From: Mycobacterium sp.
GTDB lineage: Bacteria > Actinomycetota > Actinomycetes > Mycobacteriales > Mycobacteriaceae
Direction of reading: 5' to 3'
Assembly: GCA_020438865.1 (NCBI GenBank)
Contig: JAGQTU010000021.1
Coordinates: 1 to 53,877 of the forward strand
DNA: 53,877 nucleotides
Below are positions 5,551 to 12,153 of the stretch, piece by piece. Both the position numbers and the translations under genes were made by a program. Positions within the stretch are counted from its first letter, which is position 1. Every line of letters starts with the position of its first letter. The notes beneath the pieces are model-generated. The model saw nothing but the letters and a program-made list of their open reading frames with translations, was not told where the DNA came from and did no database searches.

Positions 5551-5696
5551 CGTTCATACCGACTGCAAGAACCGGAACAAACGTCCCAGAATCGCCTCCC
5601 CAGCAAACTCCCATGGGTCACAATTGCCCCGTCGGCTGACGCTGTCGGCCGGACATGTGTCGGGGGGCACCGCTACACGCTGGGGGAACGACTGAC

Positions 5697-8420
5697 ATGG
5701 CCGCAGGCAGATACATCGGACGGGTCGGAGCGCTGGCCGTCGCGTTGGGGGTTGGCACGGCAGTGGGGTCAGGCTACGGCTTGGCCTGGGCCGATACCAC
5801 GGGAACCTCGGACTCGGACTCGACGTCGTCGTCATCGCAGTCCTCGTCGACGAGTGGATCGACGGACACCGGATCAAAGACCACCACGGGCGAGTCCACG
5901 ACGACGGGCACCACGACCGGCACCACCACGTCGACCGGCGGCAGCACCACGTCGACCGGCGGCAGCACCACGTCCACCGGCGGCAGCACCACGTCGACCG
6001 GCACCACCACGTCGACCGGCGGCAGCACCACGTCGGACTCCCAGCCCACCACGTCCTCCACGACCGGCACCACGAGGACGAGCACCTCGGGCACTCAGAT
6101 CACAACGGGCTCCACCACATCGGTGACGACCGGCTCCGGATCCTCCACCGACCCGAAGTCCACGCTGAGCGCGCAGGGGGTGGTGGAGGGCAGCACCACC
6201 GAGTCACGCACCACCTCCCAGCCGACAAGCACCTCCCCGTCCACCAAGGTCGAGAAGCCCACCGAAACGACGGCCGTCACCCAGCCGACAAGCACCTCCC
6301 CGTCCACCAAGGTCGAGAAGCCCACCGAACCGACGGCCGTCACCCAGCCGACGCCGAGCCCCACGCCCAACCCGGAACCAACACCGCAGGCTCAGCAGCA
6401 GACGGTGCCTGACAACAAGTCATCGTCGACCACCCAGTCCTCGAGCAACCCGCAGCCGACCACCGCCACCGCGACGACGTCGCGGGTGCCGACGACCACG
6501 CTGAGTGCGAACACCCAGTCGACCGCGACCTCGGTCACCGCGCCGACCGCCCTCACCGAACCGTTGTTGAGCCGGTCCCTGGTCACCGCCCTGGCCGCAT
6601 CCGCCCCGACGCCGGTCTCCCTGCTGTCGCCGACGGCCGTCCCGCCCCCGGTCAGCCCCCCGTCTCCGGTCGCCCGCGCCGTGACGAGTCTGCTGTCCGT
6701 CTTCGGCATCGACCTGCTGGCCGGCACCACTCCGGTGGCACCCGCACAGTCGCCGCTGCTGTGGGGGCTGCTGGGATGGGTGCGACGGCAACTGGCCGGT
6801 GCGGTCCCCAGCACCCCGCAGATCTCGACGATGACCACCTCGCTGTTCACCGCCCAGCCGGTCGGCGCGCTCGACCTCGATCCGGCCGCAACCGCGCCGG
6901 CGGCGACGGTGGACGCGGTGGAGCCCATCGCGCTGGATGCCGCGGCGCCGGCCGCGCTGGATGTGGCGACACCTGCCACCTTCGGTGTCGAAGAGTCGGC
7001 CGCGCTGGATGTGGCGACACCTGCCACCTTCGCTCTCGACGATTCGGGCCCGGTGGATGCGACGGCCGACCCGGCGACGGACCCAACGGCCCTGGACACC
7101 GCCACGCCGATGATGATGGCGGCCGCGGTGGAGCCGGTCGCCCTGGCGGCAACCGCCCCGACCACCTTCGCCGCGCCGGTCACCCTGGCCGCGGCCGCGC
7201 TGGCTGCGCCGGCACCGGGGTTCCCCGCCCCGGGCGCCCAGCTGAGCCCCTCGACGAACTTCATCAGTTGGCTGACCGGCAACTTCCCGGACAACTACAC
7301 GTTGTCCCGCTTCGGAATCAACGGCACCGACGTGGGCATCATCTGGGACAACGGCATGGTGGACGATCCGTCCACGCCCTACAACGAGCACCAGTTGCTG
7401 ATCGCGTTCGGCGACACGTTCGGCGACCCCAACGCCCCGGGCCAGCAGTGGCGGTCCAATGTCCTGCTGCGCACCTCGGACCTGGTGCTGTCCGACGGCT
7501 TGTCGATCCCCAACGGCACCGTGATCAATGCCGCCGATCTGTCCACCTACTTCGGCGGTGCGCCGCTTGCCTATGTGAACTTCGCCAAGCAGATCATCGA
7601 CGACCCCAATCTCGGCCCCGCGGTGACGATCATCCCGACCGCAGGCATCTCCGTCCCGACGCCGGGAACCATGTTCGGCGTCACGCAATACATCAACTTC
7701 ATGGCCGTCCAGCAGTGGGGCAATCCGGGCTATTGGACCACCAGCTATTCGGCGATCGCGTACTCACAGGACAACGGCCAGAACTGGACCGTCGCCCCGT
7801 CCACCGTTCGCCTCAACCAGTGGTGGACCGGGAACCAGAATTTCCAGCAGGTTTCCTACGTTCGGCCGGATGACGGCTACGTCTACATGTACGGCACGCC
7901 CAACGGGCGCCAGGGCAACGCATATCTGGCCCGGGTGCCCGAGCAGTCGATGCTGGACCTGACCAAGTACCAGTACTGGAACGGCAGCGCGGCGGCCGTG
8001 CCCGGCCAGCCGGGCCCCGCGGGGCAATGGGTCACGGGCAACCCGGCGGCGGCGACAGCCATCTTTCCGATCCAGACCATCACCAGTGTTGGTGCCTGCG
8101 GAGCACTCTCTCAGAGCCGGGGTGCCGGCTCCACCACCAGCGAGATGTCGGTCCAGTACAACGCTTACCTGAAGAAGTACATCGCCATGTACACCGACCA
8201 GAACAACAGCGTCGTGATGCGCACATCCGACCTGCCGCAGGGCGCATGGTCCTACGCCAAGGTGCTGATGAACCAGCAACCCGGCGGCATCTACGCACCG
8301 ATGATGAACCCGTGGTCGCCGTCGACCAAGGGCACGGGATCCGATCTCTACTGGAACCTGTCGCTGTTCAGCACCTACGACGTGATGAACATGCGTACCG
8401 ACCTGTCCAAAGTGAACTGA
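5697..8420 (+). CDS. Large secreted DUF4185 protein with Ser/Thr- and Ala/Pro-rich linker
   Basis: A 907-residue exoprotein. A signal peptide (residues 1-32, ending AWA) is followed by about 250 residues of Ser/Thr/Gly low complexity made of near-identical repeats (GGSTTST; TSTSPSTKVEKPTE). A hydrophobic Ala/Pro/Val-rich region follows to about residue 515. The C-terminal 390 residues (from NFISWLTGNFPDN, through LLIAFGDTFGDPN and VRPDDGYVYMYGT) match the mycobacterial DUF4185 domain, a predicted beta-propeller of unknown activity. The Ser/Thr/Pro stretch suggests a cell-wall spanning or mannosylated stalk displaying the propeller. ATG 5697 is chosen over the in-frame ATG at 5655 because the signal peptide starts there, with GGGGGAACG upstream. 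Confidence 0.85.
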   Translation: MAAGRYIGRVGALAVALGVGTAVGSGYGLAWADTTGTSDSDSTSSSSQSSSTSGSTDTGSKTTTGESTTTGTTTGTTTSTGGSTTSTGGSTTSTGGSTTSTGTTTSTGGSTTSDSQPTTSSTTGTTRTSTSGTQITTGSTTSVTTGSGSSTDPKSTLSAQGVVEGSTTESRTTSQPTSTSPSTKVEKPTETTAVTQPTSTSPSTKVEKPTEPTAVTQPTPSPTPNPEPTPQAQQQTVPDNKSSSTTQSSSNPQPTTATATTSRVPTTTLSANTQSTATSVTAPTALTEPLLSRSLVTALAASAPTPVSLLSPTAVPPPVSPPSPVARAVTSLLSVFGIDLLAGTTPVAPAQSPLLWGLLGWVRRQLAGAVPSTPQISTMTTSLFTAQPVGALDLDPAATAPAATVDAVEPIALDAAAPAALDVATPATFGVEESAALDVATPATFALDDSGPVDATADPATDPTALDTATPMMMAAAVEPVALAATAPTTFAAPVTLAAAALAAPAPGFPAPGAQLSPSTNFISWLTGNFPDNYTLSRFGINGTDVGIIWDNGMVDDPSTPYNEHQLLIAFGDTFGDPNAPGQQWRSNVLLRTSDLVLSDGLSIPNGTVINAADLSTYFGGAPLAYVNFAKQIIDDPNLGPAVTIIPTAGISVPTPGTMFGVTQYINFMAVQQWGNPGYWTTSYSAIAYSQDNGQNWTVAPSTVRLNQWWTGNQNFQQVSYVRPDDGYVYMYGTPNGRQGNAYLARVPEQSMLDLTKYQYWNGSAAAVPGQPGPAGQWVTGNPAAATAIFPIQTITSVGACGALSQSRGAGSTTSEMSVQYNAYLKKYIAMYTDQNNSVVMRTSDLPQGAWSYAKVLMNQQPGGIYAPMMNPWSPSTKGTGSDLYWNLSLFSTYDVMNMRTDLSKVN
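5930..6031 (+). repeat. Tandem 21-bp coding repeats (Ser/Thr/Gly)
   Basis: A unit beginning GTCGACCGGCGGCAGCAC recurs at 5930, 5951, 5972 and 6011, with a shorter 18-bp variant at 5993. All units stay in frame, so changes in copy number lengthen or shorten the exoprotein stalk without breaking it. Confidence 0.8.
6219..6344 (+). repeat. Two tandem 63-bp coding repeats
   Basis: Units 6219-6281 and 6282-6344 differ at a single base and encode two successive 21-residue blocks containing TSTSPSTKVEKPTE. The near identity indicates a recent in-frame duplication inside the DUF4185 gene. Confidence 0.85.
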
Positions 8421-9815: not shown

Positions 9816-9918
9816 GACCGAAAAAATGTCCAGAAAAGTGTCACGCCGGACCCCGGTCGCTACTCCTACCTGTGACAGCGGCCCAGCCGGGGCCGCGGAC
9901 GCCGCCAAGGAGCACTCG
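9816..9918 (+). promoter_or_regulatory. Sigma-gene promoter and leader block (copy 1)
   Basis: This block is shared with 11581-11685. Common elements in the same order are an A-rich tract, AAGTGTCA (9836-9843), 12 unconserved bases, GTCGCT (9856-9861), CTCCTACCTGTGA (9863-9875), AGCGGCCC, and finally CAAGGAG 7 bases before an ATG. Exact conservation of the two boxes and of their spacing, with unconserved bases between, is what a sigma-factor promoter pair looks like. The most economical reading is autoregulation by the ECF factor encoded just downstream. Confidence 0.7.
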
Positions 9919-9996
9919 ATGCGCACCAGCCACACCGGCCTGACCGGCGCCTACGCGCTTCCGTCGGACGGGACGCCCGGGGCGGCCCTCCGATGA
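9919..9996 (+). CDS. 25-aa leader ORF coupled to the ECF sigma factor gene
   Basis: ATG 9919 lies 7 bases after AAGGAG, and the frame ends at TGA 9994-9996, overlapping the sigma factor's ATG 9993 as ATGA. The peptide (MRTSHTGLTGAYALPSDGTPG, then AALR) aligns without gaps to the N-terminus of the membrane protein encoded at 11686: M1, T3, T9, A13, D17 and G21 are identical and several other positions similar. The sigma gene has no good Shine-Dalgarno of its own, so leader translation probably delivers ribosomes to it. It may be the relic of a duplicated N-terminus. Confidence 0.6.
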   Translation: MRTSHTGLTGAYALPSDGTPGAALR

Positions 9997-11543
9997 CCGC
10001 GGTAATCGACTGGGACATCGTCAGCGACGCCGAGCTGGCCGCCGCGGCCGCGGACGGCAACCAGGCGGCCTTCGCCGGCATCTATGACCGCTACGCGGAC
10101 CGACTGCACGACTTCTGCGTGGGTATGGTGCGGGACCGCGAGGCCGCGGCCGACTGCGTCCAGGACACCTTCGTCACAGCGGCAACACGGCTCTCCTCCC
10201 TGCGTGAGCTGGACAAACTCCGCCCGTGGCTGTACGCCATCGCGCGCAACGAGGCGCTGCGGCGCATCCGGGAGCGCAACCGTGAGCAACCCTCGGACGA
10301 ACTGCCCGAGGTGACTTCGGCCGAACCGGGTCCCGACGTCATGGCCTCCCGCACCGAGCTGGCCACGCTGATCGCCCAGGTCGCCGACGGGCTCTCCGAT
10401 CGCGACCGGGCGGTCCTGGAACTGACCTACCGACACGGCCTCGACGGCCCCGAGCTCGCCGAAGCCCTCGGGGTGAGCGCGGCGGGCGCCCGCACGATGA
10501 CGCACCGGCTGCGCGAAACCATCGAGCGGTCCCTCGGGGCGCTGCTGGTCGCCCGGCGCGCCCGGACCGGGCAGGGCTGCCCGGAACTGGGCGAATTCCT
10601 CTCCGACTGGGACGGCGAGTTCACCATCCTGATGCGCAAACGCATCGCCCGCCATATCGACACCTGCCCCGGCTGCCAGGAGCAACGGGGCAAGATGGTG
10701 AACCCCGTCGCACTGCTCGGCGGCGCGCCGCTGTTCATCCCGGCACCCGCCGCCCTGCGGAAACAGACGCTGGACCGCATCCAGCTCGTCTGCGCCCAGA
10801 AAGCCATGACCGGTCCCGCATCCCCCGGTTCGACCGGGCCCGGCGGCGCGACGGGTGGGGCCGCGGGCCTGGCGACCGTCCCCGCTGCGCCCATCCCCGA
10901 TCGATCCGATGACTCCGCGGCGTTCGTCGACGAGCCCGGAACTGAGGCCGGCGACGGTGCCGAGGACGCCGAGAAGCGCAGGCGCCGGCCGCTGTTGCTG
11001 TTCCTGTGGCTCGGGGCGGCGGGGATCGCCGCGCTCGTCCTGGCCTTGCTGTGGCCCTTCACCCGGAACAGCTCGCTGGACCCCGTCGTCATCACGCAGA
11101 GCCCGACGCAGCCCAGTCCCACGCTGTCGAGCCCGCCGCAGACCACCCCGCCGCCGTCGGCGCCCCCGTCGACCAGTGCGGAGCTTCGACCGACGGTCAT
11201 CCCTTACGTTCCGCCCCCGTCGCAGCCCTACATCGCCCCAACCGAGTCGGCCCCACCGTCCCGGCCCCCCGCAAGTACAAGGCCGGCTACGCCGCCGACC
11301 CGGACGTCGAGTGCAAGCCCCTCATATGCCCCGCAGCGTTCGGGAGGGCCGGCCGCCACGACCGGCTCGGGTGGCAACGGCAGGAACGGCGCCGGCGGCC
11401 CCGGGCGGGGGTCGTCGGGCTCGTCGGGTTCGGGCAGCTCGACGGGCTCGGGCGGGTCGACGGGCGGCTCCACCGGCGGCTCCACGGGATCGACCGGTTC
11501 ACCGCGTTCCGGCGGCAATTCCATCGGCTCGAGCGTGCCCTGA
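9993..11543 (+). CDS. ECF sigma factor fused to zinc-finger anti-sigma, membrane and Pro-rich domains
   Basis: 516 residues. Residues 15-95 are sigma region 2 (FAGIYDRYADRLHDF, DCVQDTFVTA, LRPWLYAIARNEALRR). Residues 133-190 are region 4 (LSDRDRAVLELTYRHG plus helix-turn-helix). Then H221-x3-C225-x2-C228 (HIDTCPGC) matches the zinc-binding anti-sigma motif. A single membrane helix lies at about 333-354, and some 160 outward-facing Pro/Ser/Thr- and Gly/Ser-rich residues follow. The protein thus appears to join an ECF factor with a membrane anti-sigma in one chain, a layout known in some actinobacterial ECF groups. It should be held at the membrane until a surface signal frees or cleaves it. 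The start is coupled to the leader by ATGA. Confidence 0.85.
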   Translation: MTAVIDWDIVSDAELAAAAADGNQAAFAGIYDRYADRLHDFCVGMVRDREAAADCVQDTFVTAATRLSSLRELDKLRPWLYAIARNEALRRIRERNREQPSDELPEVTSAEPGPDVMASRTELATLIAQVADGLSDRDRAVLELTYRHGLDGPELAEALGVSAAGARTMTHRLRETIERSLGALLVARRARTGQGCPELGEFLSDWDGEFTILMRKRIARHIDTCPGCQEQRGKMVNPVALLGGAPLFIPAPAALRKQTLDRIQLVCAQKAMTGPASPGSTGPGGATGGAAGLATVPAAPIPDRSDDSAAFVDEPGTEAGDGAEDAEKRRRRPLLLFLWLGAAGIAALVLALLWPFTRNSSLDPVVITQSPTQPSPTLSSPPQTTPPPSAPPSTSAELRPTVIPYVPPPSQPYIAPTESAPPSRPPASTRPATPPTRTSSASPSYAPQRSGGPAATTGSGGNGRNGAGGPGRGSSGSSGSGSSTGSGGSTGGSTGGSTGSTGSPRSGGNSIGSSVP

Positions 11544-11580
11544 CCTTGGCTTTTCCGCCCATCGCACGACACCGGCCGGT

Positions 11581-11685
11581 GGCCGAAAAAAACTCTTCCA
11601 AAAAAGTGTCATGAGTTGCCCACGTCGCTGCTCCTACCTGTGAGAGCGGCCCGATCGGGACCGCGAACACCGCAAGGAGCCCGCC
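11581..11685 (+). promoter_or_regulatory. Promoter and leader block (copy 2)
   Basis: This is the second copy of the block at 9816-9918. An A-rich tract is followed by AAGTGTCA (11604-11611), 12 unconserved bases, GTCGCT (11624-11629), CTCCTACCTGTGA (11631-11643), AGCGGCCC and GCAAGGAG before ATG 11686. The presence of both elements upstream of the membrane protein gene makes that gene the first predicted regulon member of the neighbouring ECF factor. Confidence 0.7.
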
Positions 11686-12153
11686 ATGAGCACCACCTAC
11701 GCCGAGCCGACCGCCACCTTCGCGTTCTCCCCCGACTTGCCGACGGGCCCGGAGTTCGCGATCACACCCGAGTACACCGCCACCCACTACACCCTGGGTT
11801 CGGACGACCCGACGGCCCTGGCCTGGTCGCTGAGCCCGCTGGGTGACCCGGCCGCCGAGGACGACGACCTGTTCATCGATGCCGGCGAGCACCACCGTGA
11901 GTCGGCGATCAAGATCCGCACCGGTGGCGCACTGGCCGCGATCGTGCTCGGCGCCGCGGGCATGGGTGCCGCGGTGGGCATCGCGATGGTCGACTTCTTC
12001 GATACGCCGACCCTGCCGGCGGTCGTCATCCCCGCCGCCAACGCCCCGGCGCCGGCCCCGATGGCCCCGCACTCCGGGTCCCCCGCCACCGTCGCACCGG
12101 CTCCCGCGCAGCTGGTCGCCATCCCGTTGCCGGCCAACGCCCGTCCGATCTGA
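11686..12153 (+). CDS. Single-pass membrane protein, likely ECF-regulon member
   Basis: 155 residues. A polar, acidic N-terminal half (MSTTYAEPTATFAFSPD...) precedes one membrane helix at about residues 83-104 (Ala/Gly/Val-rich), then a Pro/Ala-rich tail of some 45 residues probably facing outwards. AAGGAG lies 6 bases before the ATG. The N-terminal 21 residues resemble the leader peptide before the sigma gene, and the promoter region is duplicated from it. No enzymatic motif is visible. It could be a partner or sensor for the membrane-tethered sigma factor, whose exported tail is similarly Pro-rich; this is inference from context. Confidence 0.75.
   Translation: MSTTYAEPTATFAFSPDLPTGPEFAITPEYTATHYTLGSDDPTALAWSLSPLGDPAAEDDDLFIDAGEHHRESAIKIRTGGALAAIVLGAAGMGAAVGIAMVDFFDTPTLPAVVIPAANAPAPAPMAPHSGSPATVAPAPAQLVAIPLPANARPI

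Follow-up and report, generated by a model that had tools for sequence, protein, structure and literature searches.

Our analysis supports a model whereby each of two repeated intergenic blocks in a 53,877-nucleotide stretch of Mycobacterium DNA (the window, which is the entire contig C132 of a 4.96-Mb assembly of 366 contigs) serves as a promoter-leader unit that is recognised by the ECF sigma factor whose gene lies at 9993..11543 (+, 516 aa). This sigma factor would be held at the membrane by an anti-sigma domain of its own and would activate its own operon. Judging from the sequence evidence set out below, we place the probability of this reading at roughly 0.8.

The two blocks form a genuine repeat: every box that an earlier note on this DNA had named lies at its place and in the order given, and the local alignment of the blocks scores 108, against a best score of 33 in 300 shuffles. 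Block 1, on the forward strand, comprises an A-tract with TGTC as the -35 region (9834..9842), a 20-base spacer (9843..9862), the box CTCCTACCTGTGA (9863..9875), which would run from the -10 region through the likely transcription start, a leader hairpin with arms GCGGCCC and GGGCCGC around the loop AGCCG (9878..9896), an AAGGAG ribosome site (9907..9912) and a leader ORF of 25 codons, the start of which we corrected to 9919, and which overlaps the start of the sigma gene in ATGA (9919..9996). Block 2, on the same strand, repeats the A-tract and TGTC (11602..11610), CTCCTACCTGTGA (11631..11643), a hairpin with a different loop and an added bulge (11646..11664) and the AAGGAG site (11674..11679), here before a partner gene of 155 aa (11686..12153). 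Throughout the 4.96-Mb assembly, the pattern AAGTGTCA-N10..14-GTCGCT occurs only at 9836-9861 and 11604-11629, both times as N12, and its reversed control has no match. The window also encodes, at 5655-8420 (+), a 921-aa protein with a DUF4185 domain (E 4.7e-90) after a long Ser/Thr-rich stretch.

The similarity between the blocks runs on into the coding starts, for about 43 bases beyond the start codons in the local alignment, as would be expected if the promoter and start region had recently been duplicated in place, with no wider regulatory meaning. Such a duplication may account for the likeness of the pair in the window, but not for the element itself, because the same element precedes unrelated genes in dozens of genomes, where the spacers diverge and the boxes are conserved. 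The pattern scan and the scan of 297 genomes described below already refute duplication as the sole explanation, and we regard it as very improbable.

Comparison across genomes redefines what is conserved. The element consists, in order, of the A-tract, TGTC, a 20-base gap, CTCCTACCTGTGA, the hairpin, the ribosome site and the start codon, and its conserved spacing is TGTC-N20-CTCCTACC. When stretches around the sigma genes of genus genomes were fetched blind to the element and then scanned for CTCCTACCTGTGA with at most two mismatches, a TGTC-like box was seen by eye 20 bases 5' of CTCCTACCTGTGA in 18 sites outside the window; a match at position 6825 (+) of locus L058 is a chance match and was excluded. 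Across 36 sites the spacer varies, whereas the A-tract, TGTC and CTCCTACC hardly change, the G of TGTC and two A columns being fully invariant; these sites were picked by pattern with at most two mismatches, which inflates the conservation of the boxes and leaves the spacer columns unaffected. Of 104 distinct strings, 93 have a gap of 20 between TGT[CG] and CTC[CT]TACC, although many come from stretches fetched using that gap. GTCGCT (9856-9861 in block 1), which the earlier note had taken for a conserved -10 box, falls inside the variable spacer, where it is weakly preferred: it is exact in 3 of the 36 sites, two of which are the window's own, and present with at most one mismatch in 8, and we rejected it as the -10 box. 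Likewise, AGCGGCCC, previously read as a plain box, is the 5' arm of the hairpin. The earlier pattern with N11-13 matches 5 of 201 family genomes (this genome twice, four others once), so that as stated it is not the conserved element. Downstream, the start codon follows the motif at a median of 43 bases in the collected sites, and 47 of 49 sites have a start codon accompanied by a ribosome-site-like stretch within the 20-75 bases searched, the other two reaching contig ends.

Typical ECF promoters carry the boxes AAC and CGT. The boxes here are unlike this classic pair, and 13 bases is long for a -10 element, two points in favour of the alternative that the element is the operator of a separate, co-inherited transcription factor, or the promoter of another sigma factor, with the ECF factor being just one of the targets. 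What speaks against this alternative is that the element, with TGTC and a -10-like box spaced almost as in ECF promoters, fits the geometry of ECF41 promoters, given in the available text of PMC3426412 as TGTCACA-n16-CGTC with a spacer of 16 +/- 1. The ECF41 -35 box shares TGTC with our element at a similar distance from the -10 box and, counted from TGTCACA, CTCC occupies in the element the place of the ECF41 CGTC (PMC3426412). By this analogy, the placement of TGTC and CTCC suggests that the element is an ECF promoter at which transcription would begin near the conserved TGA. Our searches of the open-licence literature yielded no recognised earlier description of the element (TCCTACC, found in one published paper, is there an unrelated array probe); as far as those searches show, the promoter, the leader hairpin and the regulon are new.

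The strongest support for the sigma factor as the reader of the element comes from their co-occurrence. Among 98 genus genomes, 18 have the sigma region at E < 1e-80, including the window genome; the other 17 share 59-69% identity with the window sigma factor, and six more genomes hold distant ECFs only. A pattern scan of the 98 genomes with at most three mismatches gave 52 sites versus 2 for the reversed pattern, and 44 of the 52 fall in the 18 sigma-positive genomes; with at most two mismatches, sites are present in 13/18 sigma-positive versus 2/80 other genomes. We then scored 297 genus genomes with R1, a covariance model built from 44 sites of the 98 genomes, at a cut-off of E 1e-5, and searched the same genomes for the sigma factor at 1e-40, with scoring confined to the 16 and 9 top candidates, respectively, in each genome. 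R1 sites were found in 67 genomes and the sigma factor in 62 (both in 60, sigma only in 2, site only in 7, neither in 228), that is, sites in 60/62 sigma-positive versus 7/235 sigma-negative genomes. For the 199 genomes outside the training 98, which we infer from the handle numbers to be a subset of the 297, the corresponding counts are 43, 1, 5 and 150, with sites in 43/44 sigma-positive versus 5/155 other genomes; the 199 include a near twin of the window genome (G453). Because the genomes share ancestry, p-values from Fisher tests on these counts overstate the association and are not true probabilities. What holds of the earlier proposal that the promoter is tied to the encoded sigma factor is thus this association, the conservation near orthologues and the position before start codons, while the GTCGCT box and the single partner gene were abandoned.

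All sigma candidates were scored in the nine discordant genomes. Two (G209, G473) have the sigma factor without a site at E 1e-5, and the seven with a site only were still sigma-negative at 1e-12. In three of these (G246, G386, G470) a partner-type gene follows the site and is truncated by a contig end, and its closest kin, compared by eye, directly precedes the sigma gene in G124 and G069; a fourth (G445, 55% complete) has a divergent pair of sites near a contig end, an arrangement found beside the sigma gene in G394. The last three (G211, G364, G462) lack a contig-end explanation and favour the operator alternative; the sites of G211 and G246 belonged to the R1 training set. At a loose E of 0.05, R1 matches 35/98 genomes; 18 of these are sigma-negative, and in many the match covers only the hairpin half. 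To look beyond the genus, we ran R1 at E 1e-4 on 201 genomes of the family, of which 15 belong to the genus, and it matched 4 of the 186 others. Two of these, from one genus, have a 53-54% identical sigma gene at a distance of about 0.45 kb, and the site there precedes a gene for a 49-aa peptide. The other two matches (G032, G021) are weak, and the sigma factor is absent from the fetched stretch; the G021 site precedes a DGPF-type protein and is, we suspect, a cross-match to the promoter of another ECF group. The element and the sigma factor thus stay together in two genera although the neighbouring genes differ, which argues against a separate regulator, and we consider that alternative unlikely. 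Used as a query against plasmids, the sigma factor gave two distant matches (35-41% identity).

The domain structure of the protein fits a membrane-tethered sigma factor. It contains sigma region 2 (10080..10283; PF04542, E 5.1e-13) and region 4 (10377..10520; PF08281, E 2.1e-6), both of which, like TIGR02937, score above cut-off, and its profile matches the SigW, SigH and sigma-E structures; with regions 2 and 4 it is an ECF sigma factor. These regions are followed by a CHCC zinc finger, C196-X24-H221-X3-C225-X2-C228 (10578..10676), which is invariant in 10/10 aligned proteins, by one predicted membrane span (residues 334-352, 10992..11048, hydropathy 2.59) and by a C-terminal tail rich in proline, serine and glycine. 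The Pfam match to zf-HC2 is below cut-off, but HX3CX2C is present in 20/20 orthologous genes (three genomes supply two each, and a paralogue on contig C365 is left out), in keeping with a C-terminal zinc finger of the anti-sigma type. A span after the finger is predicted, by hydropathy only, in the window protein and 15 of the 20 orthologous genes, and these 15 share the finger and the proline-rich tail as well, in line with the earlier view of a sigma factor with its own membrane anti-sigma domain; the span-less orthologues (in G232, G209, G201, G269 and G270) end soon after the finger. Compared with HKST-UBA43, a Mycobacterium MAG with 89% identity to the window sigma gene over the best segment, dN/dS for the sigma gene is 0.11. 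Some genomes have four to six sigma matches, suggesting an expansion of the family; two loci, L108 (in G257) and L047 (in G052), hold two sigma paralogues within a few kb.

By domain order, the sigma factor matches the fused-anti-sigma kind represented by ECF48, ECF52 and ECF53, which are likewise actinobacterial and show the same succession of sigma2, sigma4, zinc finger, membrane span and long outer tail (PMC8999054). ECF48, for which the example in that review is from Mycolicibacterium (PMC8999054), is the likely group, judged by taxon and domain order alone; for ECF48, we found no promoter or regulon in the open-licence literature available to us. SCO4117 of Streptomyces coelicolor, an ECF52 member, has the zinc finger, the span and a proline-rich extension in common with the window protein, and positive autoregulation has been proposed for it as it is here (PMC5826349). 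SCO4117 differs in its C-terminal carbohydrate-binding domain (PMC5826349), for which the window protein has no Pfam match at E 0.1, and ECF52 as defined therefore does not fit; moreover, the motif CSGYN-17-SRHA, given as putative in the available text of PMC5826349, is not matched by TGTC and CTCCTACC. ECF41 factors have a SnoaL-like extension (PMC8999054), again without a Pfam match in the window protein at E 0.1, and a single local target has been detected for them. IutY of Pseudomonas putida (ECF243) is also a sigma factor with a fused membrane anti-sigma, for which activation by proteolysis has been shown, but it belongs to an iron-starvation cell-surface signalling system, unlike the window sigma factor (PMC8999054).

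The leader ORF of block 1 looks like the beginning of the partner gene, a resemblance that the earlier note had missed. Over the first 50 coding bases, the observed match was reached by 0 of 5000 codon shuffles and by 46 of 5000 protein shuffles. The partner protein contains LAWSLSPLGDP, one predicted span (11935-11991) and an Ala/Pro-rich tail, has no Pfam or NCBIfam match at E 0.1 and has a dN/dS of 0.33 against HKST-UBA43; a simple text match for LAWS or AWASSPLGDP places 10 of the 47 genes that come first after a site in a loose set with it. In relatives, the slot between promoter and sigma gene holds a one-span protein (G124, G069, G257, G263, G229) or a small secreted-type protein (G408, G343), and in G330 a script search found no such ORF. 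We suggest that the leader ORF is probably a remnant of the partner-type gene that sits in this position in several relatives. Alternatively, the leader ORF could sense a condition, as a regulatory upstream ORF or through an attenuator peptide, as the retention in HKST-UBA43 of the leader length and of the stop/start overlap might indicate. Amino-acid constraint is not seen in the leader, however, with a dN/dS of about 1.1 against HKST-UBA43 (8 non-synonymous and 3 synonymous changes over 25 codons, a comparison of low power). Given this ratio beside those of the sigma and partner genes, and the longer membrane or secreted proteins that fill the slot in relatives, or the lack of such an ORF in G330, a sensing peptide is less likely than a remnant and on the whole improbable. 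The remnant may still serve translational coupling, because its stop overlaps the sigma start.

The hairpin, which had also escaped the earlier note, covaries in sites new to the model. The best stem begins 0-2 bases past the motif in 40/46 leaders, versus 17/46 after one shuffle each, and for 37 sites outside the R1 training set the summed folding energy is -408, compared with a mean of -274 and a best of -304 in 200 shuffles. In A2, an alignment of 39 rows (37 of them new) that was fitted to R1 and is thus biased towards the model, 77% of hairpin cells pair, versus 36-45% in slid versions, two-sided changes are seen in 6 of the 7 pairs, and none of 500 shuffles reached the covariation score. 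The unfitted alignment A1 also scores above all 500 shuffles, with 67% of hairpin cells pairing; its count of two-sided pairs is unremarkable (reached in 82/500 shuffles), and its modest pairing is perhaps due to variation in loop length. Some sites lack the hairpin (e.g., L108:5002).

The regulon appears wider than the single co-regulated partner that had been proposed: this genome contains six R1 sites, and others have up to 15 matches. In addition to the two in the window, three sites lie on C365: one precedes a sigma paralogue without region 2, another an acyltransferase gene, and the third, which is on the opposite strand, a CDP-alcohol phosphatidyltransferase-like gene. The sixth, on C29, precedes a gene for a 128-aa secreted-type protein. 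The paralogue (225 aa; L061, 5114-5788, -) has region 4 (Pfam match below cut-off), the zinc finger and its own copy of the promoter; the sigma match at this locus spans residues 89-233 with one internal stop, behind which the ORF begins. It has a counterpart in HKST-UBA43 (L183), and a dN/dS of 0.24 between the two genomes suggests that the gene is kept. Elsewhere, the recurrent first genes encode an alpha/beta hydrolase, a BioF/Kbl-end-like fragment, small secreted proteins and lanthipeptide-like precursors, and 23/47 first genes fall outside these classes. The BioF/Kbl-like proteins, of which one copy was scanned, resemble only the C-terminal part of such enzymes and have 127-160 aa (L097, L110, L117 and, as a tandem pair, L190).

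Three loci (L058, L060, L197) are class I lanthipeptide-type clusters with span-less relatives of the sigma factor. The span-less sigma factors of G269 and G270 and that of the other genus adjoin a lantibiotic dehydratase and an ABC transporter; peptidase C39 was detected in 2/3 of these clusters, and LanC was identified in the other-genus cluster only, the one place where a candidate was scanned. In these clusters the promoter precedes short precursor genes whose leaders resemble LALRRQSIRTLTADEL--AHGG; for three lanthipeptide-like precursors NCBIfam gave no name.

We therefore favour, at the strength given at the outset, a mechanism in which the sigma factor carries its own inhibitor, namely the CHCC zinc finger, the membrane span and the proline-rich outer tail, and would be silent while held at the membrane. 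An envelope signal would probably trigger proteolytic release of the sigma part, as is expected for fused-anti-sigma ECF groups of Actinobacteria (PMC8999054). The free sigma factor would then direct RNA polymerase to promoters of the form A-tract/TGTC-N20-CTCCTACC, including that of its own operon, which would provide positive feedback, that of the one-span partner at 11686 and those of scattered envelope, lipid and secreted-protein genes. Transcription would probably start near the conserved TGA, in which case most transcripts would open with the GC-rich hairpin. Its position at the 5' end invites the guess that it protects that end, or it may set the level of expression, while the leader ORF, as a remnant gene, may couple translation to that of the sigma factor. 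A fuller version of this model, which we offer tentatively, combines a sigma-defined regulon with a covarying hairpin that most of its members would share shortly after the transcription start, promoter and leader being inherited as a unit, and with the paralogue lacking region 2 as a possible brake; if it were true, the sigma factor would set both transcription and RNA fate.

With these results, a fused-anti-sigma ECF factor of mycobacteria gains a readable promoter, and with it a predicted regulon in about one-fifth of the sampled genus genomes (62/297). This regulon would comprise one-span proline-rich partners, small secreted proteins and lipid enzymes and, in the clusters that we read, class I lanthipeptide genes together with the span-less form of the sigma factor. 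The targets of the anchored sigma factors, and the reason why their transcripts would share a common 5' hairpin, thereby become testable.
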